Virus record (IMG/VR): IMGVR_UViG_3300030333_002204
Location: 1-27,534 of that record
Strand: one strand, 5' to 3'
Length of the DNA: 27,534 nt
Source: a virus
The notes below the pieces were generated by a model. It saw only the letters and a list, made by a program, of their open reading frames with translations, searched no databases and was not told the origin of the DNA. Each line of letters begins with the position of its first letter. The first letter of the stretch is position 1. Shown in pieces: positions 2,213-26,530 of this stretch. The position numbers and the translations under genes were made by a program.

Positions 2213-3388
2213 ATGACTAATAATGTTCCAGAAGAATGGGGTAATAACTTCTATAAATCTGGATGGCAACCTGGATTAGAAGTTAACGAAGCTACTGGTC
2301 AAGGTGAAATCACACACGTTGGAACAGACCCAAACTACAGAAATAAGTTTGATGATATTCTGCGTGACTGGGGGTTTGACCCCAAGCTGTATGAAATTGT
2401 AGATACAGTTAAAGCTAGCAGTTGGAACGTACAATTAAAAGGTGGTAGAACAGAAACCTTTTTTGCATTTAAAGGTGTAGTACGTAAGAAGAATCCTGGT
2501 CAAGATAAATACTTCAAAGCATTATTCAAACAAGCAGGTAGAAAACCACCTCTTAAATTAAAAACTCATGGTGGTGACACAGCATTCTTATTCTTTATGG
2601 CTGATTGGCAGCTAGGTAAGAAGGACTTTGGAGTAGAGAATACTATTAAACGTTATGACATAGCGCTGCAAGATGCAGTCAACAGAATCAAAGAGCTGCG
2701 CAAGTCTGGTGTAATGATAGATGAAATATATATGATAGGATTAGGTGACCTCACAGAAAATTGTACTCCACATTTTTACGAGAGTCAGCCACACAATGTT
2801 TCTCTCTCACTGATTGAGCAATACGCATTAGCTAGGTCAATGATTATGAAAACAATAGATACATTCTTACCACATGCAGATAAATTAATACTTGCAGGTG
2901 CGCCAGGTAACCATGGTGAGATGTCCAGGACCAGCAAAGGTCAAGTTGCTACTAGCAGATTAGATAACTCTGATACCATGCACCTACAGATATGTGAAGA
3001 GATTATGTCTGCTAATAAAGAACGTTACAAGAATGTAACAGTTGATGTACCAGATGGTTTTCACCAGGTAATGACTATCAAATCAATACCATGCGGCTGG
3101 ACACATGGACACATGACTGGTGGCAGCGGTGGTAATCCAGAGAATAAAATAGAGAACTGGTGGAAGGGTCAGATGTATGGATTCTTACCGATGAGTGACG
3201 TACAAATTTTAATTACGGGTCACTATCATCACTTTCGTGCAAAGCAACAAGGTGATAGAACTTGGTTTCAATCTCCTAGCTTAGATAAAAGCATAGACTT
3301 TACAGCTAGGTCTGGTCTTTGGTCCCATCCAGGTGTACTTACATTTACTGTAAATAAAAAAGGATGGGATAACCTAAAGATTCTTTAG
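2213..3388 (+). CDS. Calcineurin-like metallophosphoesterase
   Basis: This 391-residue protein has the metal-binding motifs of the metallophosphoesterase superfamily in order: Asp131-x-Gln in a hydrophobic strand (FFMADWQ), Gly178-Asp179, Gly232-Asn233-His234, His298-x-His300, and Gly336-His337-x-His339. The N-terminal ~120 residues resemble no domain I know and may bind a partner or DNA. Relatives in phages are annotated as nucleases or phosphodiesterases of unknown substrate. It starts at ATG with a GGGAGG ribosome site. Its stop overlaps by 4 bases the stop of the convergent gene at 3385, with no terminator between them. The fold is confident; the substrate is unknown. Confidence 0.85.
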   Translation: MTNNVPEEWGNNFYKSGWQPGLEVNEATGQGEITHVGTDPNYRNKFDDILRDWGFDPKLYEIVDTVKASSWNVQLKGGRTETFFAFKGVVRKKNPGQDKYFKALFKQAGRKPPLKLKTHGGDTAFLFFMADWQLGKKDFGVENTIKRYDIALQDAVNRIKELRKSGVMIDEIYMIGLGDLTENCTPHFYESQPHNVSLSLIEQYALARSMIMKTIDTFLPHADKLILAGAPGNHGEMSRTSKGQVATSRLDNSDTMHLQICEEIMSANKERYKNVTVDVPDGFHQVMTIKSIPCGWTHGHMTGGSGGNPENKIENWWKGQMYGFLPMSDVQILITGHYHHFRAKQQGDRTWFQSPSLDKSIDFTARSGLWSHPGVLTFTVNKKGWDNLKIL

Positions 3389-3600
3389 CCACCTGCTGGT
3401 ACATTAAACTTAGGGTCACCGTATGCACGTGTCAAAGTTAATAGATAAGAGAATATCTCTTGTGTTTGTGTATCAGTTATGCTGTCAGAGTGTTCAATAA
3501 ACAACATAAGGTTACGCAGCAGTGCGTGTACCCTGGGATTGTTTATCTCCCACATCTTAGATTCTTTTATAGCATCTTCTAACATCATATCTAATACCAT
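3385..3600 (-). CDS. Hypothetical 71-aa protein, last gene of minus block
   Basis: A small, probably helical protein with no recognised motif. Its ATG overlaps the TAA of the gene upstream (TAATG at 3600), indicating translational coupling. It is the distal gene of the run that starts at the promoter near 5642-5672. Its stop overlaps the convergent phosphoesterase stop. Confidence 0.6.
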   Translation of the reverse strand: MVLDMMLEDAIKESKMWEINNPRVHALLRNLMLFIEHSDSITDTQTQEIFSYLLTLTRAYGDPKFNVPAGG

Positions 3601-4055: not shown

Positions 4056-4952
4056 TTATGAACCGTCTTTAAGTGACCAAGTATCTGTGTCAACCCAGTC
4101 AAATATATTACCTTTAGTTATCTTACCGCTTGACAATGCTGCTTTAGCTTTTGCTGCTAGCTCATCGTCTCCGTTGTCAATAGCTTTATTAACACAATTA
4201 TTAAATGTGTTAAGTTGCTTCTCACTAGGTGCGTCCTTCTCCCAGTCTCCGCTTGGTATGTCTGCCATGTCGTCTCCTTCTTTTACTTCTACGTCACCAT
4301 CAAATGTTTCAATGATGGTATTTATTACATCTGAATTACCTTGACGTTCTTCAAATGTTTTCTTTTGTTTATCAATGTACTTAGATGCAACATCAATAAA
4401 AGTTTTTTGGTCATCTTCTGTGTAATCTACTATGCTCTCTGGCATACCTGGTTTGACCTTAACTCTATCAGTTGTGTACTTCCATACATTAGTAGCAAAA
4501 TCTTTATCCTTGCCACACATATCTAATATGATTTGTTTAAGTTCATTAGAAGGGGATGTCACCTTCTCTTGTACTATAGGTTTTTTTTTAGGTGCAGCTG
4601 GTTTACTGTCAGATACTTTGCTCATCTCTTCTCTGCTTGGTCTAGGTTTATTGCTGCCCTGGTATTTCCAGTTAGCTAAAGCTCTACCTATTGCAGAAGT
4701 CTCGCAGTTCTCCATCCATGCGTCAGCATTAGCAAAGCCACCTTGACCTTTAGTCTCTTGTGCTGTACCAGTGGTCACTGGTCTTGCATCTGTTAGGTCC
4801 TTGTATAGTTCTGCTTTAATAGTTACACATGTACCGTCAGTAGTTATATGTACTATATCTGTCTCTATTCTTCCGTCTGGATTATCCTTCCAGAATAGTT
4901 TTAATCTATCTTCTACTGTCTCGTAGTTTTCTAAATTAAACTTCGCCATCAT
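4056..4952 (-). CDS. Putative single-strand annealing / recombination protein
   Basis: This 298-residue protein begins MMAKFNLENYETVEDR. Its N-terminal ~120 residues carry a segment (E-N-C-E-T-S-A-I-G-R-A-L-A-N-W, then P-S-R-E-E-M) that I recognise as recurrent in actinobacterial phages, where it is left hypothetical or linked to Erf/Rad52-like annealing proteins. A Lys/Pro-rich linker (about residues 125-135) leads to a mixed helical region and an acidic C-terminus. The two-part layout, core plus acidic tail, suits a single-strand-DNA-interacting protein. It overlaps the HTH gene upstream by 17 bases and lies next to a winged-helix gene. The family signature is moderately sure; the annealing function is inferred. 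Confidence 0.55.
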   Translation of the reverse strand: MMAKFNLENYETVEDRLKLFWKDNPDGRIETDIVHITTDGTCVTIKAELYKDLTDARPVTTGTAQETKGQGGFANADAWMENCETSAIGRALANWKYQGSNKPRPSREEMSKVSDSKPAAPKKKPIVQEKVTSPSNELKQIILDMCGKDKDFATNVWKYTTDRVKVKPGMPESIVDYTEDDQKTFIDVASKYIDKQKKTFEERQGNSDVINTIIETFDGDVEVKEGDDMADIPSGDWEKDAPSEKQLNTFNNCVNKAIDNGDDELAAKAKAALSSGKITKGNIFDWVDTDTWSLKDGS

Positions 4953-5151
4953 TACCTTCCTTGTTTACTATTGTGTACACATGCTTACGTGATACACCTG
5001 CTGCTTCTGCTATATTTTCTACTGTCATTTTTGTTGTACTCCTGGCATCAAACAAATGTGTAATCATGTTGTTACGTGATTGTGTTTTCTGTTTGATAAG
5101 TTCAGCAGTCATCTTTAAATCCTGCAGTAATAACTCTTCATAACTCTGCAA
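4936..5151 (-). CDS. Small helix-turn-helix DNA-binding protein
   Basis: A 71-residue protein starting at TTG 5151, directly after the TAG of the upstream gene and behind a strong Shine-Dalgarno (GGAAGGAG). Residues ~43-63 form a clear helix-turn-helix (T-V-E-N-I-A-E-A-A-G-V-S-R-K-H-V-Y-T-I-V), preceded by a ~40-residue helical, possibly dimerising region. It could be a repressor or activator of this block. The 3' end overlaps the annealing-like gene by 17 bases. There is no ATG near the start, so TTG is the best choice. Confidence 0.7.
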   Translation of the reverse strand: MQSYEELLLQDLKMTAELIKQKTQSRNNMITHLFDARSTTKMTVENIAEAAGVSRKHVYTIVNKEGNDGEV

Positions 5152-5641: not shown

Positions 5642-5672
5642 GTTAGACTCTTCTAGTTATTAATTGGTTACA
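5642..5672 (-). promoter_or_regulatory. Promoter: TGTAACC-N18-TCTAAC
   Basis: Read on the minus strand, TGTAACC (5672-5666) is followed after 18 bases by TCTAAC (5647-5642). The ATG of the gene at 5620 follows 21 bases later with its ribosome site in between. This is one of seven copies of the same element in the window. The -35 half overlaps the end of the upstream zinc-finger gene. Confidence 0.65.
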
Positions 5673-5808
5673 AATAAATTGCGTTATTTGTAATAGTTAC
5701 TTGTGTTACTTGTGGCACTAAATACATCTTGCATAAATCATTCATGCAAACATGCCTGGCATTCACTAAGTGAGTGTGTCTGCCGCACATCATACAAATG
5801 CTTGACAA
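5668..5808 (-). CDS. 46-aa zinc-finger-like protein
   Basis: A TTG start at 5808 sits 5 bases behind a near-perfect Shine-Dalgarno (AAGGAGG at 5820-5814). The peptide begins M-S-S-I-C-M-M-C-G and has Cys5-x2-Cys8 followed by His11, His13, His19 and Cys21-x4-Cys26. This looks like a small zinc ribbon or knuckle. The C-terminal 20 residues are Thr/Val/Gln-rich. It is too short for routine ORF filters, but the Cys spacing and ribosome site are convincing. Nucleic-acid or protein binding is inferred. Confidence 0.6.
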   Translation of the reverse strand: MSSICMMCGRHTHLVNARHVCMNDLCKMYLVPQVTQVTITNNAIYL

Positions 5809-5813
5809 CGTAA

Positions 5814-5862
5814 CCTCCTTCTACGTTACTTAGTATATATTATACACGTTACTACATGTTAC
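5814..5862 (-). promoter_or_regulatory. Promoter/operator with GTAAC repeats before the zinc-finger gene
   Basis: On the minus strand, GTAACATG (5862-5855), GTAACGTG (5852-5845) and GTAACGTA (5829-5822) repeat around a TATAAT (5844-5839). The first two are one helical turn apart. The Shine-Dalgarno of the 5808 gene ends the region. No -35 matching the TGTAAC-N18 spacing is present, so this looks like a different, regulator-bound promoter. Confidence 0.4.
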
Positions 5863-5986
5863 GCATGTGTTTTTTTGCATGACGATAACCTCTCCATCTC
5901 TGGAAGTTAAAGTATGCAGCAATTAGTATGAACACTACAATGAACGCAGTCATTGTAAGTAGAATAAATCCTTGCCAACTACACAT
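5852..5986 (-). CDS. 44-aa single-span membrane protein
   Basis: ATG 5986 follows a very strong ribosome site (GGAAGGAGG, which overlaps the upstream stop). The peptide has a short head (M-C-S-W-Q-G), one transmembrane helix (about residues 7-26, rich in Phe, Ile, Leu and Val) and a basic tail with Arg, Lys and His. Positive charge after the helix predicts the C-terminus in the cytoplasm. No family is recognised. Small membrane proteins in early phage blocks often alter the host envelope or block superinfection, but that is speculation here. Confidence 0.6.
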   Translation of the reverse strand: MCSWQGFILLTMTAFIVVFILIAAYFNFQRWRGYRHAKKHMRNM

Positions 5987-5989
5987 GAG

Positions 5990-6256
5990 TCACCTCCTTC
6001 CTATTTCTAATAGCACTTTGTCTCTGTCGGGGTTAAACAATGTAGAAGTACAACCACCACCAAATGCTGGACTGATGTCTGCCATGTTGTCTGGCATGCC
6101 AGCTTGTATCTCGTCATACTTCTCACAAAAATAATTACCTGGTCCATCACCACCAAGATATATACAAGCTAAGTTATCTTCGCTTGTTGGTTTACCGAAC
6201 GGACATGGTCTCTGCTTGCAGCAGAAACCAGACCGAACACAAGAAGCAAACTCTAT
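5990..6256 (-). CDS. Cys-rich phage protein, apparent ATA start
   Basis: An 88-codon frame with seven cysteines: Cys6, Cys12-Cys13, Cys18 in a C-P-F-G context, Cys31, Cys44 and Cys69. Motifs such as G-F-C-C-K-Q-R-P-C-P-F-G, P-G-N-Y-F-C-E-K-Y-D-E-I and S-P-A-F-G-G-G-C-T-S-T-L-F-N recall a Cys-rich family, probably metal-binding, seen in many phages. There is no ATG, GTG or TTG at the 5' end. The frame opens after a TAA at 6268-6266, and the first plausible codon is ATA 6256-6254, five bases behind a perfect AAGGAG. A rare AUA start or a point change from ATG would explain this. It overlaps the 6253 gene by 4 bases. Confidence 0.65.
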   Translation of the reverse strand: MEFASCVRSGFCCKQRPCPFGKPTSEDNLACIYLGGDGPGNYFCEKYDEIQAGMPDNMADISPAFGGGCTSTLFNPDRDKVLLEIGRR

Positions 6257-6549
6257 TGTTGCTCCTTAGCTAGCAACTTGTTGCATGCCTCGTACACAAT
6301 CAAGTGGCTGTTGTTTTTATATACTTGTAGTGCATCACCTAGCATGCAGTATTCTGTATAACCCATGAACTCATGCGCTTTTGTTTTATCTGCAACTAGC
6401 TCTGTACCTAGTATCTCATCGCTGTAACCGATGATGTCTAAGAATAATGTAGCTGGTGTTTTACCTGGGTCAAAGTTTTTACTCCAGTCAAACAATGGCT
6501 GCAGCTTGTCCATTACTATATCTATTTGTGTTACTATTGTTTTAGGCAT
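6253..6549 (-). CDS. Hypothetical 98-aa protein
   Basis: It starts at ATG behind AAAAGGAGGG and about 27 bases after the -10 of the promoter at 6577-6606, so it is first in its unit. A segment (F-L-D-I-I-G-Y-S-D-E-I-L-G, then L-G-D-A-L-Q-V-Y) resembles small uncharacterised proteins I have seen in actinophages. The rest is helical with no catalytic motif. The unit continues through the Cys-rich, membrane and zinc-finger genes. Function unknown. Confidence 0.65.
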   Translation of the reverse strand: MPKTIVTQIDIVMDKLQPLFDWSKNFDPGKTPATLFLDIIGYSDEILGTELVADKTKAHEFMGYTEYCMLGDALQVYKNNSHLIVYEACNKLLAKEQQ

Positions 6550-6573
6550 CTTGCCCTCCTTTTATTGCGTACA

Positions 6574-6765
6574 TTATTTAGACTCCACATCGTGAGAAAA
6601 GTTACACTCACAATCCAAAAAACTTTTATAGATTGTGCGCAAGTGTTGCATCTCTCTGTACTTGTGTATGTCTAAACCTTCATTCATTATCCTGGTTCTT
6701 AGCTGGTCAACGTGACACTGGACCATTTCGTGTAATGATTCGTGTCCGTATTTATTCTTCTTCAT
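6574..6765 (-). CDS. Hypothetical 63-aa protein ending VESK
   Basis: The start is uncertain: ATG 6765 gives 63 residues and a 14-base overlap with the upstream gene; ATG 6780 would add five. The protein is His/Arg/Leu-rich and helical with two Cys near the end (D-C-E-C). Its last codons TCT-AAA-TAA coincide with the -10 of the next promoter, so the C-terminal Ser-Lys is probably dictated by promoter sequence. No family is recognised. Confidence 0.5.
   Translation of the reverse strand: MKKNKYGHESLHEMVQCHVDQLRTRIMNEGLDIHKYREMQHLRTIYKSFLDCECNFSHDVESK
6577..6606 (-). promoter_or_regulatory. Promoter: TGTAACT-N17-TCTAAA
   Basis: On the minus strand, TGTAACT (6606-6600) and TCTAAA (6582-6577) are 17 bases apart. 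The -10 lies inside the final codons of the 6574 gene. It reads toward the gene starting at 6549, leaving a short leader that carries its ribosome site. Confidence 0.65.
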
Positions 6766-6970
6766 CCACAACAACTTCAATAAAATTTATTTCTTGATGA
6801 TAACTTGAACGTATTTCATTCTTGTTATATGTACCACGATTGTAGTCTGATAACCACAAAGATTGCACATGTTCATCTTCTTGTAAATCAAATATTTCAC
6901 GGTCTGAATATCCATCTACTACAAATGTATCAACCTTTGTTGTGATAACTTCAAATTTTATCTTTGGCAT
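6752..6970 (-). CDS. Hypothetical 72-aa protein with acidic tail
   Basis: It starts at ATG 6970 behind AGGAAGGAAG, 12 bases after the previous stop. The N-terminal half alternates hydrophobic and polar residues as in beta strands (K-I-K-F-E-V-I-T-T-K-V-D-T-F-V-V), and the end is acidic (V-V-V-D-E-E-E). No family is recognised. It overlaps the following gene. Confidence 0.6.
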   Translation of the reverse strand: MPKIKFEVITTKVDTFVVDGYSDREIFDLQEDEHVQSLWLSDYNRGTYNKNEIRSSYHQEINFIEVVVDEEE

Positions 6971-6982
6971 TCTTCTTCCTTC

Positions 6983-7345
6983 CTATGCTGCCACCGCAGC
7001 ATCTTCTACTCTCTCAACTTCCAAGTAAAAATCTATCTCTGCATCATTAAAGAATCTGTAATCAACAAAGTATTTATTCCAATACTTGTATGGTTGAAGA
7101 GGATATTTTTTGTTGTAATAAGCATCACTGTAACCATCCTTCTTTGGAAACTCTTTGGTTACCCACTTACCACCGATGTCTTTGTAAACATCTATCTCAT
7201 CCCATAGTTCTTGCAGCTCCTGCTTTGTACCATACTTGACCCACTGTGTACCTTCCTTAACAAACCCCAGGTCTTTTAAGAACGCAGCTTTAGTTGGACC
7301 AAGCACTGGCTTGACTGCATACAACTTCGCTATCTCCTGCATCAT
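6983..7345 (-). CDS. Hypothetical 120-aa Tyr/Lys-rich protein
   Basis: First gene after the promoter at 7370-7400; ATG-ATG at 7345/7342 follows GGTGGTG. The protein is rich in Lys, Tyr, Trp and Phe (for instance D-A-Y-Y-N-K-K-Y-P-L-Q-P-Y-K-Y-W-N-K-Y-F) with a small Ala/Val-rich tail. No motif is recognised. Aromatic and basic content would suit a nucleic-acid or protein binder, but that is weak inference. Confidence 0.6.
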   Translation of the reverse strand: MMQEIAKLYAVKPVLGPTKAAFLKDLGFVKEGTQWVKYGTKQELQELWDEIDVYKDIGGKWVTKEFPKKDGYSDAYYNKKYPLQPYKYWNKYFVDYRFFNDAEIDFYLEVERVEDAAVAA

Positions 7346-7366
7346 TCACCACCTTTTTTTATCACG

Positions 7367-7753
7367 TTACTTAGACACCTGCTCTTCTAATTTAGTTACA
7401 TCTTTTTTTTCACGATACTTACCATACTCAAACTGTGGTTCAGGATTTGCTTTGACTGTTGCCTTCATATCTTCTAATACTTTTATGAACGCATCAATCG
7501 TATGCAATACATCTGACGTACCGTAAGCTATTGCACCAGACTGGCTGGTATAGAATGTCCAAAATGTTTTTCCAAATAATTTTTCTAACTCTTCACGTGG
7601 ATGAAAGTCATAATCCGCATCAATTCTAAATGGAACTGACACATCCTTAGCACATGATTGATTCCAAATTTTATATTCGTAATCAACACCACGCTCTAGC
7701 ACTTCATCATTGTCATTACTAGACCATCTGTAATTTACTTTTTTGTTATACAT
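7367..7753 (-). CDS. Hypothetical 128-aa protein ending VSK
   Basis: The ATG overlaps the TAA of the gene upstream (TAATG at 7753). The protein is acidic and aromatic, with a central F-G-K-T-F-W-T-F-Y-T-S-Q-S-G-A-I-A-Y-G segment and a charged end. Its final codons TCT-AAG-TAA coincide with the -10 of the promoter at 7370-7400, and the Asp-Val-Thr codons supply the -35. No family is recognised. Confidence 0.6.
   Translation of the reverse strand: MYNKKVNYRWSSNDNDEVLERGVDYEYKIWNQSCAKDVSVPFRIDADYDFHPREELEKLFGKTFWTFYTSQSGAIAYGTSDVLHTIDAFIKVLEDMKATVKANPEPQFEYGKYREKKDVTKLEEQVSK
7370..7400 (-). promoter_or_regulatory. Promoter: TGTAACT-N18-TCTAAG
   Basis: On the minus strand, TGTAACT (7400-7394) is followed after 18 bases by TCTAAG (7375-7370), which abuts the stop codon of the 7367 gene. 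It reads toward 7345. The bases after it, TAACGTGA, are identical to those after the promoter at 7979-8009. Confidence 0.65.
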
Positions 7754-7956
7754 TACTTACCTTCCTTTGCTTCATCCATTACACCTTGTACAAACTTAGT
7801 TGCATCATCTTCACCCATCGCCATGAATAACAATCCAATTAATATATCTATTGCTTTACCAATACCCATTACGGAATCTGCAATAGTTGTATCAAGTTCT
7901 AATTCAACCGCTTTAGTTTTAAGTTTTCTTAAAACTTCATTCCTAGTTTCAATCAT
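7753..7956 (-). CDS. Hypothetical 67-aa protein
   Basis: ATG 7956 follows GAAGGAAGGAAG and is chosen over an in-frame ATG at 7992 that lies inside the upstream gene and has no ribosome site. The protein is helical (residues 1-30) with a hydrophobic middle (G-I-G-K-A-I-D-I-L-I-G-L-L-F-M-A-M-G) and an acidic/basic tail ending K-E-G-K. It may be membrane-associated but has no clear full span. It is first in the unit that also contains the 7367 gene. Confidence 0.6.
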   Translation of the reverse strand: MIETRNEVLRKLKTKAVELELDTTIADSVMGIGKAIDILIGLLFMAMGEDDATKFVQGVMDEAKEGK

Positions 7957-7975
7957 GTTTCTTCCTTCCTTCACG

Positions 7976-8497
7976 TTACTTAGACTCAACATCTTCTGAA
8001 TCGGTTACATCTTCTGCCATCTTTTTTAATTTCTCCCAGTGTGGTTCAAACGTAGGAAGAAAATAGTTCTTCATGTAATCTGCATGGCTGTCATACCCTG
8101 GAAATCTTGCAGCAAATTCTTTTGGTTCTAAAGACCACATCTCTTTTGCAAGATGGAATGGACTGTGATACTCATTCTCAAATGTAATCATGTTGAGTTC
8201 CTTCATAGTATATTCTTTGTAAACGTAGTCACCTTCTGTTAGTACATAAGTTTTATCTACGTACTCTTGGAATGGCATGCCGTCAACAACACCGTCAACA
8301 TTACCGTCAATATATTTTGCGCTGACTGAGTCATCGTAAACTGTATTTGTTTTTTTGTTTAACAAGAACGCATGACCACCGTAATGTGCAGCACCCTTGA
8401 ATATATCTCTTAGTGCATGGACCACAACCCAGTCATCACCTTTTGATGGGTCATTGATTGCATTCCATGCAGCTGGATAGCAGTTACCAGCACCCAT
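7976..8497 (-). CDS. Papain-like (C/H/D) protein, function unknown
   Basis: A 173-residue protein starting M-G-A-G-N-C-Y, its ATG overlapping the stop of the upstream gene (TAATG). Cys6 in N-C-Y-x-A-A-W, His42 in G-G-H-A-F-L-L and Asp55 in V-Y-D-D-S are spaced like the Cys-His-Asp triad of NlpC/papain-like or transglutaminase-like folds. No signal peptide is seen, so it should act in the cytoplasm, perhaps on a host protein. The last ~70 residues are helical and charged. It ends in Val-Glu-Ser-Lys, coding sequence that doubles as the promoter at 7979-8009. The fold is a pattern-based guess; activity is untested. Confidence 0.5.
   Translation of the reverse strand: MGAGNCYPAAWNAINDPSKGDDWVVVHALRDIFKGAAHYGGHAFLLNKKTNTVYDDSVSAKYIDGNVDGVVDGMPFQEYVDKTYVLTEGDYVYKEYTMKELNMITFENEYHSPFHLAKEMWSLEPKEFAARFPGYDSHADYMKNYFLPTFEPHWEKLKKMAEDVTDSEDVESK
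7979..8009 (-). promoter_or_regulatory. Promoter: TGTAACC-N18-TCTAAG
   Basis: On the minus strand, TGTAACC (8009-8003) is followed after 18 bases by TCTAAG (7984-7979), directly before the TAA stop of the 7976 gene. It reads toward ATG 7956, 22 bases beyond the -10, with GAAGGAAGG between them. Confidence 0.65.
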
Positions 8498-8652
8498 TAT
8501 CTTTTACCTTTTGTTGGTTGAGTTTTATCCATTCTGTAAATCACACCTTCATTGATTTCTGCTGTGACATACGCATCTTCAAAGTGTGTTGGAGCAGAGA
8601 CTCTGATGTCTCCGTTTGCTTTCCAGTAAATAACTCTATAGATTTCTTTCAT
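8497..8652 (-). CDS. Hypothetical 51-aa protein
   Basis: ATG 8652 lies one base after the TAA of the upstream gene, behind GGAAGGAG, and the frame ends in a TAA that overlaps the ATG of the 8497 gene. The peptide begins M-K-E-I-Y-R-V-I-Y-W-K with beta-like alternation and ends basic (T-K-G-K-R). No family is recognised. It completely fills the gap and has normal codon use. Confidence 0.6.
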   Translation of the reverse strand: MKEIYRVIYWKANGDIRVSAPTHFEDAYVTAEINEGVIYRMDKTQPTKGKR

Positions 8653-8653
8653 G

Positions 8654-8857
8654 TTAAGACTCCTTCCTTTTTTCCTTTATGATTTTCTTAACATCACTTT
8701 GCAATCTAATTAACTCAATAAAGCTATTGCCATCAAGAACATTGAACACTTCCGCATCTAATGTAGTAACTCTTTGAAGCGCAGTTTTAAACACTTCTAA
8801 TTCTGCAATAGTTCCTTGTTTTAGTTTTTTATCTAACATCTCTTTTGTAAATGTCAT
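8654..8857 (-). CDS. Hypothetical 67-aa helical protein
   Basis: The chosen ATG 8857 follows GAAGGAAGGAAG. An in-frame ATG at 8875 would place the ribosome site inside the gene. The protein (M-T-F-T-K-E-M-L-D-K-K-L-K) is Leu/Lys/Glu-rich and likely helical, ending E-K-R-K-E-S. It is first in a unit of three genes after the promoter at 8880-8910. No function is recognised. Confidence 0.6.
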   Translation of the reverse strand: MTFTKEMLDKKLKQGTIAELEVFKTALQRVTTLDAEVFNVLDGNSFIELIRLQSDVKKIIKEKRKES

Positions 8858-8879
8858 ATCTCTTCCTTCCTTCATATTT

Positions 8880-8910
8880 ATTAGACCATTACCTTTACGA
8901 TTAAGTTACA
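8880..8910 (-). promoter_or_regulatory. Promoter: TGTAACT-N18-TCTAAT
   Basis: On the minus strand, TGTAACT (8910-8904) is followed after 18 bases by TCTAAT (8885-8880), which contains the TAA stop of the kinase gene. It reads toward ATG 8857, 22 bases beyond the -10. Confidence 0.65.
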
Positions 8911-9480
8911 TAGTTTTTGTAAGAATTTTGATTTGACTGAATTGAACCCTGGTAATTCTTGATAGTCAATGTAACCAGTAGCTGCTAATTCTTGCAGTTT
9001 TTCTGCAGTGTATTCTGTACCCCCGAAGTCTTTTGCGCATACTGATAAGAACATTTTGCGCTTGCTTGTTTGGTTACGTCTATGCACATTATAAAGGCAG
9101 CTTGCTAAATCATTCTTGACATATACAAAGCGCACTTGCAAGCCAGCTGATTTTGCAGCTGTAATCCTAGTTAATACTTTTGACCAGTTTTTGCCGCGGT
9201 TATCAAAGATAACTGTTTTACATTTATAGCTATCTAAAAATGAATCTTGATTATAAAAATAACTGAATAGCAGAGATTGTGATAACTCTGAAGCTGCGGG
9301 GTGCAGCTGCGCATTAGTATCAGAATCTACTGGCATCTGATTATTGAAAGCTAGCTTGATAGCATCCGCATCTATAATAAAGGCATCTTGCTGACCAGCT
9401 AATTCTTTGGCATATCTTGACTTACCGCTACCGCTAGCACCGATAAGAAATGTAATTGTGTTCTGTGTTTTTGTGTTCAT
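8881..9480 (-). CDS. Zeta-toxin-like P-loop kinase
   Basis: A 199-residue protein with a Walker A loop (G-A-S-G-S-G-K-S, residues 14-21) right behind the first beta strand, then I-I-D-A-D-A-I-K (about 35-42) as in zeta-toxin and polynucleotide-kinase relatives. A Walker-B-like strand T-V-I-F-D-N-R-G (about 89-96) and a basic lid region V-H-R-R-N (132-136) follow. It should phosphorylate a small molecule, nucleic acid or sugar nucleotide; the substrate is unknown. The only possible ATG lies 4 bases after the -10 with no Shine-Dalgarno, so the mRNA may be leaderless. No antitoxin-like partner is recognised next to it. Confidence 0.65.
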   Translation of the reverse strand: MNTKTQNTITFLIGASGSGKSRYAKELAGQQDAFIIDADAIKLAFNNQMPVDSDTNAQLHPAASELSQSLLFSYFYNQDSFLDSYKCKTVIFDNRGKNWSKVLTRITAAKSAGLQVRFVYVKNDLASCLYNVHRRNQTSKRKMFLSVCAKDFGGTEYTAEKLQELAATGYIDYQELPGFNSVKSKFLQKLCNLIVKVMV

Positions 9481-9484
9481 GTTA

Positions 9485-9515
9485 ATTAGAGCTAAATTAG
9501 TTACAAAAGGTTACA
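9485..9515 (-). promoter_or_regulatory. Promoter: TGTAACC-N18-TCTAAT, leaderless gene
   Basis: On the minus strand, TGTAACC (9515-9509) is followed after 18 bases by TCTAAT (9490-9485). The kinase ATG (9480) begins only 4 bases later, unlike the 21-27 bases seen at the other copies in the block, and there is no ribosome site between. Transcription would start at or next to the ATG. Confidence 0.6.
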
Positions 9516-9663: not shown

Positions 9664-9807
9664 TTTATTAACCTACTAACGCAACATAATAGGTATTATA
9701 GGACAACAAACGGGAATGTAAATTTGCGTGGGGTGTATTCGTATTCGTAACACTACAGTTAGTTAATGCCAATTTATTACTATATATAGTGTGTTATATA
9801 AAAACTA

Positions 9808-26500: not shown

Positions 26501-26530
26501 ATTAGACTACTTAGAAAAAAAAAGGTTACA
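26501..26530 (-). promoter_or_regulatory. Promoter TGTAACC-N17-TCTAAT with no gene: short RNA?
   Basis: On the minus strand, TGTAACC (26530-26524) is followed after 17 bases by TCTAAT (26506-26501), the same element as in the minus-strand block. No gene lies downstream; an ATG at once meets TAA. The terminator hairpin at 26435-26486 would end a transcript of roughly 60 bases. A small RNA is therefore possible. Confidence 0.45.

Follow-up and report, generated by a model that had tools for sequence, protein, structure and literature searches.

ECF-like promoters heading exchangeable phage gene cassettes probably depend on the only ECF sigma factor of a marine actinobacterial host

Introduction

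Which factor directs transcription from a strict two-block element that recurs on one strand of a phage genome? The question is raised by the IMG/VR virus record IMGVR_UViG_3300030333_002204 (G000), studied here as a window of 27,534 bases that comprises the whole stretch of DNA analysed. A preliminary description had listed six near-identical TGTAAC(C/T)-N17/18-TCTAA promoters on the minus strand between positions 5,642 and 9,515, and had suggested that a dedicated phage or host sigma factor, or a phage activator, could co-regulate the small genes behind them.

A repeated element on the minus strand

All six sites were recovered on the minus strand, although the −10 ends had been placed one base too low and a seventh exact match on the same strand (26530-26502) had been missed. 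The window holds seven exact matches to TGTAACY-N17/18-TCTAA, compared with 0.08 expected, and none of these is on the plus strand. The motif is therefore commoner than chance would allow, and a chance origin is rejected by the controls: the largest count in 100 dinucleotide shuffles of the window was one, and a reversed pattern gave no matches. The reported spacers of 17 or 18 nt hold, with TGTAACY and TCTAA separated by 18 nt at five of the six noted sites and by 17 nt at the other. Five sites do lead to a ribosome site and a start codon, at 22-28 nt after TCTAA rather than the 21-27 nt first given.

Promoter 1 (TGTAACCTTTTGTAACTAATTTAGCTCTAA; positions 9486-9515, minus strand, as are all features that follow) is assigned to a P-loop kinase-like gene (AAA_33 or zeta-toxin-like; 8881-9480), which is the first gene of the block. 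Promoter 2 (8881-8910) lies within the 3′ end of this gene, such that its TCTAA contains the kinase stop codon, and precedes a small gene for 67 amino acids (8654-8857) whose place is occupied by other gene families in relatives. Promoter 3 (7980-8009) lies within the 3′ end of the MGAGNCYP gene, where it encodes the tail DVTDSEDVESK, and is followed by another small gene for 67 amino acids (7753-7956). Similarly, promoter 4 (7371-7400) encodes the tail DVTKLEEQVSK at the 3′ end of the ORF at 7753-7367 and stands before a gene for 120 amino acids (6983-7345), while promoter 5 (6578-6606), whose spacer is one nucleotide shorter, lies within the 3′ end of the ORF at 6765-6574 and precedes a gene for 98 amino acids (6253-6549). 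Promoter 6 (5643-5672) precedes the ORF at 5620-5273 (115 amino acids), and promoter 7 (26502-26530) is located within the late operon. Four sites overlap the 3′ end of the preceding ORF, with the stop codon in or just after TCTAA. Upstream of the block there is also a conventional, sigma-A-like promoter (TTTACA-N16-TATAAT; 9695-9722), which is found as well in relatives that lack the motif and is likely the entry promoter of the block. Rfam and tRNA scans returned no matches.

Architecture of the element and its predicted start site

A sequence logo was built from 21 distinct (non-redundant) sites from relatives. These were collected with a pattern containing AAC, and this −35 core is accordingly present in 21/21. 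TGTAAC is preceded by A-rich positions and followed by C (19 sites) or T (two sites) and then by A/T-rich sequence. TCTAA is preceded by (A)G, the G being present in 18/21 sites and giving a GTC core to the −10 region; the remaining three have CTC. Beyond TCTAA there is a conserved A at +3, a pyrimidine at +5 (19/21) and a purine at +6 (20/21). Given that a pyrimidine-purine pair is the usual signature of a start site, transcription is predicted to begin 6 nt after TCTAA. The complete element thus consists of an A-tract, TGTAACCWWTT, a spacer, GTCTAA and, 6 nt further, the pyrimidine-purine start site. Among the 76 sites of the family, the gap from TGTAACY to GTC is 17 nt in 60 and 16 nt in 16, and 62 lead into a ribosome site with an ATG after it. 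We consider it nearly certain that the sites form one promoter class.

At promoter 1, the ATG of the kinase-like gene (9480-8881) begins only 5 nt after TCTAA, as it does in 8/8 distinct sequences of this site, and the gene is therefore predicted to be leaderless. The RTG that occurs at start sites was considered as a second in-frame translation start and rejected, since 16 cases are in frame and 11 are not; we read it instead as an initiator preference.

The constancy of TGTAACC recalls the middle promoters of phage T4, where MotA and AsiA act, the temporal class depends on an unvarying stretch of the −35 region, and the TATAAT sequence is kept. A phage activator that binds TGTAACC and positions host polymerase carrying the primary sigma factor could likewise account for the element, and the inverted GGTTACA in some spacers of unrelated phages has the look of a dimer site. 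However, a primary sigma factor needs A at the second position of the −10 region, whereas GTCTAA has an invariant C there and a TATAAT-like sequence is absent. The two halves of the element are also equally constant, TATAAT promoters exist separately in these phages, and we found no regulator gene common to the motif-bearing lineages. An activator of this kind is consequently an improbable explanation.

Resemblance to ECF promoters

The preliminary description had compared TGTAAC with the −35 region of B. subtilis sigma X promoters, and had set TCTAA aside as not typical of an ECF −10 region. The first comparison is close, as the −35 region is ECF-like, but the second judgement was mistaken. 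When the −10 region is read as GTCTAA, the element has the core AAC-N18-GTC and fits an ECF sigma factor. The E. coli sigma-E promoter is GGAAC...GTC with GTC as its −10 core, and actinobacterial sigma-E of C. glutamicum uses GGAAC-N18-19-GTT (PMC10012870). Furthermore, the AACC-TTT portion of the phage element resembles the −35 region of B. subtilis sigma-W promoters, ATTGAAACCTTT (PMC8103513). The suggestion of co-regulated, ECF-like alternative promoters is thus upheld, and it is very likely that these promoters are of ECF type. They share with known examples the AAC and GTC/GTT cores, the spacing and a T-rich stretch after AAC, and differ in that the phage copies are many per genome and unusually strict in both TGTAACC and GTCTAA.

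Exchange of genes behind the promoters in related phages

Terminase searches yielded 52 loci. Among the 29 larger related records, 20 carry the motif, and the reversed control gave none. The motif almost always lies on the strand opposite the terminase gene; the sole exceptions are an orthologous match within coding sequence that two records share. The strand bias and the position before genes seen in the window extend to relatives. One relative (G010) wraps on itself and is taken to be a complete genome of about 37.4 kb. Cultured relatives are distant, with terminases only 22-32% identical, the best matches being to Streptomyces phages.

Different genes follow one and the same promoter across relatives, with six clusters behind the kinase gene and four behind the MGAGNCYP gene, and the same gene can be found behind different promoters. 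The promoter DNA encodes a common tail, DVTxxxxVESK, on unrelated upstream proteins. In relatives, the counterpart of the site at 26530 drives an exchangeable minus-strand cargo gene that is absent from the window. Each site would thus head a small cassette, and genes swapped in behind it would stay under the same control. T4-related phages and cyanophages likewise exchange small gene cassettes at intercistronic promoters, in their PeSL elements. Those elements carry sigma-70 early promoters and a terminator stem-loop, whereas the present promoters are ECF-type and often lie inside the preceding gene.

That exchange occurs exactly at the sites, and that hairpins occur in some spacers of other phages, might suggest that the repeats serve in recombination or act as RNA elements rather than as promoters. 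The two-block layout with its free spacer, the pyrimidine-purine signal, the A-tract and the ribosome sites all speak against this, as do the leaderless gene at the predicted start and the presence of the same architecture before host rpoD (see below), and we regard such an origin as very improbable.

A sister clade, with terminases about 91% identical, lacks the motif (G004, G005, G006, G007, G008, G019 and G020). Where they can be seen, the corresponding promoters of these phages use TATAAT, both for the kinase gene, which is likewise near-leaderless, and for the second block, and in G004 for the same cargo gene. Because conventional promoters stand at equivalent places, the promoter class is exchangeable as a set, and the factor that reads it is not essential for this type of phage. 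Directly before the −10 region, some minus-strand promoters of G004, G008 and G019 have a near-palindrome, TACACA-N2-TGTGTA, which is perhaps a repressor operator.

The same element in unrelated phages

Scans of IMG/VR with the exact pattern also brought up records that do not resemble the family at the nucleotide level. The motif-rich ones among them carry 7-21 copies each, compared with none for the control: 21 in the 52-kb G074 (19 on one strand), 18 in the 40-kb G075, 17 in G073, 10 in G078 and seven in the 65-kb G076. Given these copy numbers in dissimilar phages, and that sites are kept while genes are swapped, we view the element as a mobile promoter class. Certain cassettes recur between the lineages together with their leading promoter, such as one for a 59-amino acid protein with two CxxC pairs that is 60% identical.

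In G074, G075 and G080 (loci L400-L405 and L414-L415), the spacer contains an inverted copy of the −35 region, TGTAACC-N5/6-GGTTACA. At some of these sites there is a long palindrome or a UUCG-type hairpin, and the promoter overlaps the stem-loop. Another small protein, zinc-finger-like (C-x4-C...CxxH; 10604-10389 in the window), is present in nearly all members of the family and in the unrelated G076.

Search for a phage-encoded factor

Some phages do encode sigma factors, as do those of the phiEco32 and 7-11 kind (PMC4331800). There too a single class of alternative-sigma promoter (TAATGTATA) runs a block of phage genes, with the difference that the sigma factor is phage-encoded and the promoter has an extended −10 region without a −35 region, which is present here. 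Pfam, PHROG and six-frame searches of the phages revealed no sigma gene. The ORFs of the complete G010 include no recognisable sigma factor or polymerase, a further 16 records with the motif, which represent several lineages, showed no Sigma70_r2, and no WhiB was found in the phages. The dedicated phage sigma factor proposed at the outset was therefore not found in any of these 17 records.

A strongly diverged sigma or sigma-like protein that profiles fail to recognise might nevertheless read the promoters, and the near absence of the exact phage consensus from host chromosomes would be in keeping with this. Two genes for 71-amino acid proteins could be candidates. The first (3385-3600), a possible accessory factor, belongs to a family (WE[IV]NNPR) that occurs in this phage lineage only where the motif is present (12 records), the distant G080 and G083 included, and not in the motif-minus clade. 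It thereby follows the motif within the lineage; however, the family is absent from unrelated motif-rich phages, and since it follows the motif in one lineage only, we rejected it as a universal regulator. Its structure model is of low confidence. The second (4936-5151) is a helix-turn-helix protein with a sub-threshold match to Sigma70_r4. It occurs both with and without the motif, its family has no credible match in unrelated phages, and its model (pLDDT 91) gave only generic helix-turn-helix matches, none of them significant, so that it was rejected as a sigma region 4. Together with the missing Sigma70_r2 and the architecture shared with host rpoD and fabD, these observations make a diverged phage sigma factor unlikely, though less so than an activator.

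The likely host and its sigma factors

A marine Actinomycetota MAG of 1.1 Mb contains binned relatives of the terminase (54% identical), and a terminase search of 42 genomes of the order found only this already known MAG. Candidatus Actinomarinales have genomes of about 1.1 Mb, a GC content of 32.5% and two sigma factors (PMC7771536). We judged the order of the MAG to be this one from the size (about 1 Mb), GC contents (0.32-0.35) and number of sigma factors of its genomes. The most likely host is thus a marine actinobacterium with low GC content, of the Actinomarinales type, with the caveat that the binning of MAGs can be wrong.

None of 29 genomes of the inferred host order encodes more than a single primary and a single ECF sigma factor. 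The latter, as sought by the preliminary description, is present in most of them as a protein of about 195 amino acids of the SigW/SigM/RpoE type, encoded between rpmG and secE-nusG. The protein encoded after it carries an HxxxCxxC motif like that of zinc anti-sigma factors, and Pfam assigns it no name. No copy of the motif was found near the ECF gene in 20 loci, as might be looked for with autoregulation.

Promoters of similar architecture in host genomes

When host sequences were searched with a looser AAC...GTC pattern, and only then, sites emerged upstream of rpoD. All 20 rpoD loci carry [T/G]GTAAC[T/G]-N17-GTCAAA (equivalently [T/G]GTAAC-N18-GTCAAA) 3-7 nt before the ATG. The loci comprise 12 distinct sequences, which differ in the spacer but all have GTAAC and GTCAAA at an invariant distance. 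The identity of rpoD was checked by its regions 1.2, 2, 3 and 4, and 40 other host loci lack a site of this type. Transcription of rpoD in the host order therefore seems to come from an ECF-type promoter and to leave the mRNA almost leaderless. The two versions differ, with GTCTAA and TGTAACC in phages versus GTCAAA and usually TGTAACT or GGTAACT before rpoD.

Host chromosomes are otherwise poor in such sites. The 29 host genomes show no enrichment of the exact phage consensus (four matches versus nine for the control), and a sigma-W-like variant is not enriched in host genomes either. Some 800 kb from two host chromosomes gave no site of phage strength when scanned with a weight matrix of the phage sites and, rpoD aside, no phage-like site. 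A very strict phage pattern was found in 3/395 genomes of the class: two different genomes have it before fabD, and an Actinomarinales genome has it beside an integrase gene. At unselected fabD loci in the wider class, 13/29 carry TGWAACY-N17-GTC, about 65-135 nt before the gene, versus 0.6% of random windows; the nominal P = 1e-21 is overstated because the genomes are related. The motif precedes fabD in 0/8 loci of the host order itself. In Bacillus, sigma-W controls fatty-acid genes, of which the conserved ECF-type promoter before the fatty-acid gene fabD in many members of the class is reminiscent. One Actinomarinales locus (L447, G046) has a single strong phage-type promoter before genes for a VWA-domain protein and an integrase, and is probably a mobile element.

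The original proposal of a phage or host sigma factor can accordingly be narrowed: with no phage sigma factor found, the architecture common to the rpoD and fabD promoters favours the ECF sigma factor of the host. From these sequence comparisons, the recognising factor is likely host-encoded, and we put the probability that the single ECF sigma factor of an Actinomarinales-type host reads the ECF-type phage promoters at roughly two in three. Infection or envelope stress may free this factor from its zinc-type anti-sigma factor, after which it would read the phage cassette promoters and, through the same ECF-type architecture, the promoter of rpoD, the primary sigma gene.

Implications

Phages are known to use the host primary sigma factor or to bring their own sigma factor or polymerase. 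If unrelated phages instead share a regulon that relies on an ECF sigma factor of the host, this would be a third strategy; our literature search found no earlier report of a host ECF sigma factor acting at phage promoters, which does not prove that there is none. In a wider scenario, for which we see the odds as even, unrelated marine phages have placed their cassettes under the host ECF sigma factor that drives rpoD, and relatives leave this regime via TATAAT promoters. If true, phage genes and the transcription capacity of the host would be on one switch. Such an arrangement would account for how small phage genes are swapped without loss of regulation and would offer a simple sequence test for the hosts of uncultured marine phages. 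It would also provide the first candidate regulon for the sole ECF sigma factor of these very small marine actinobacteria, in which rpoD is predicted to be under ECF control.
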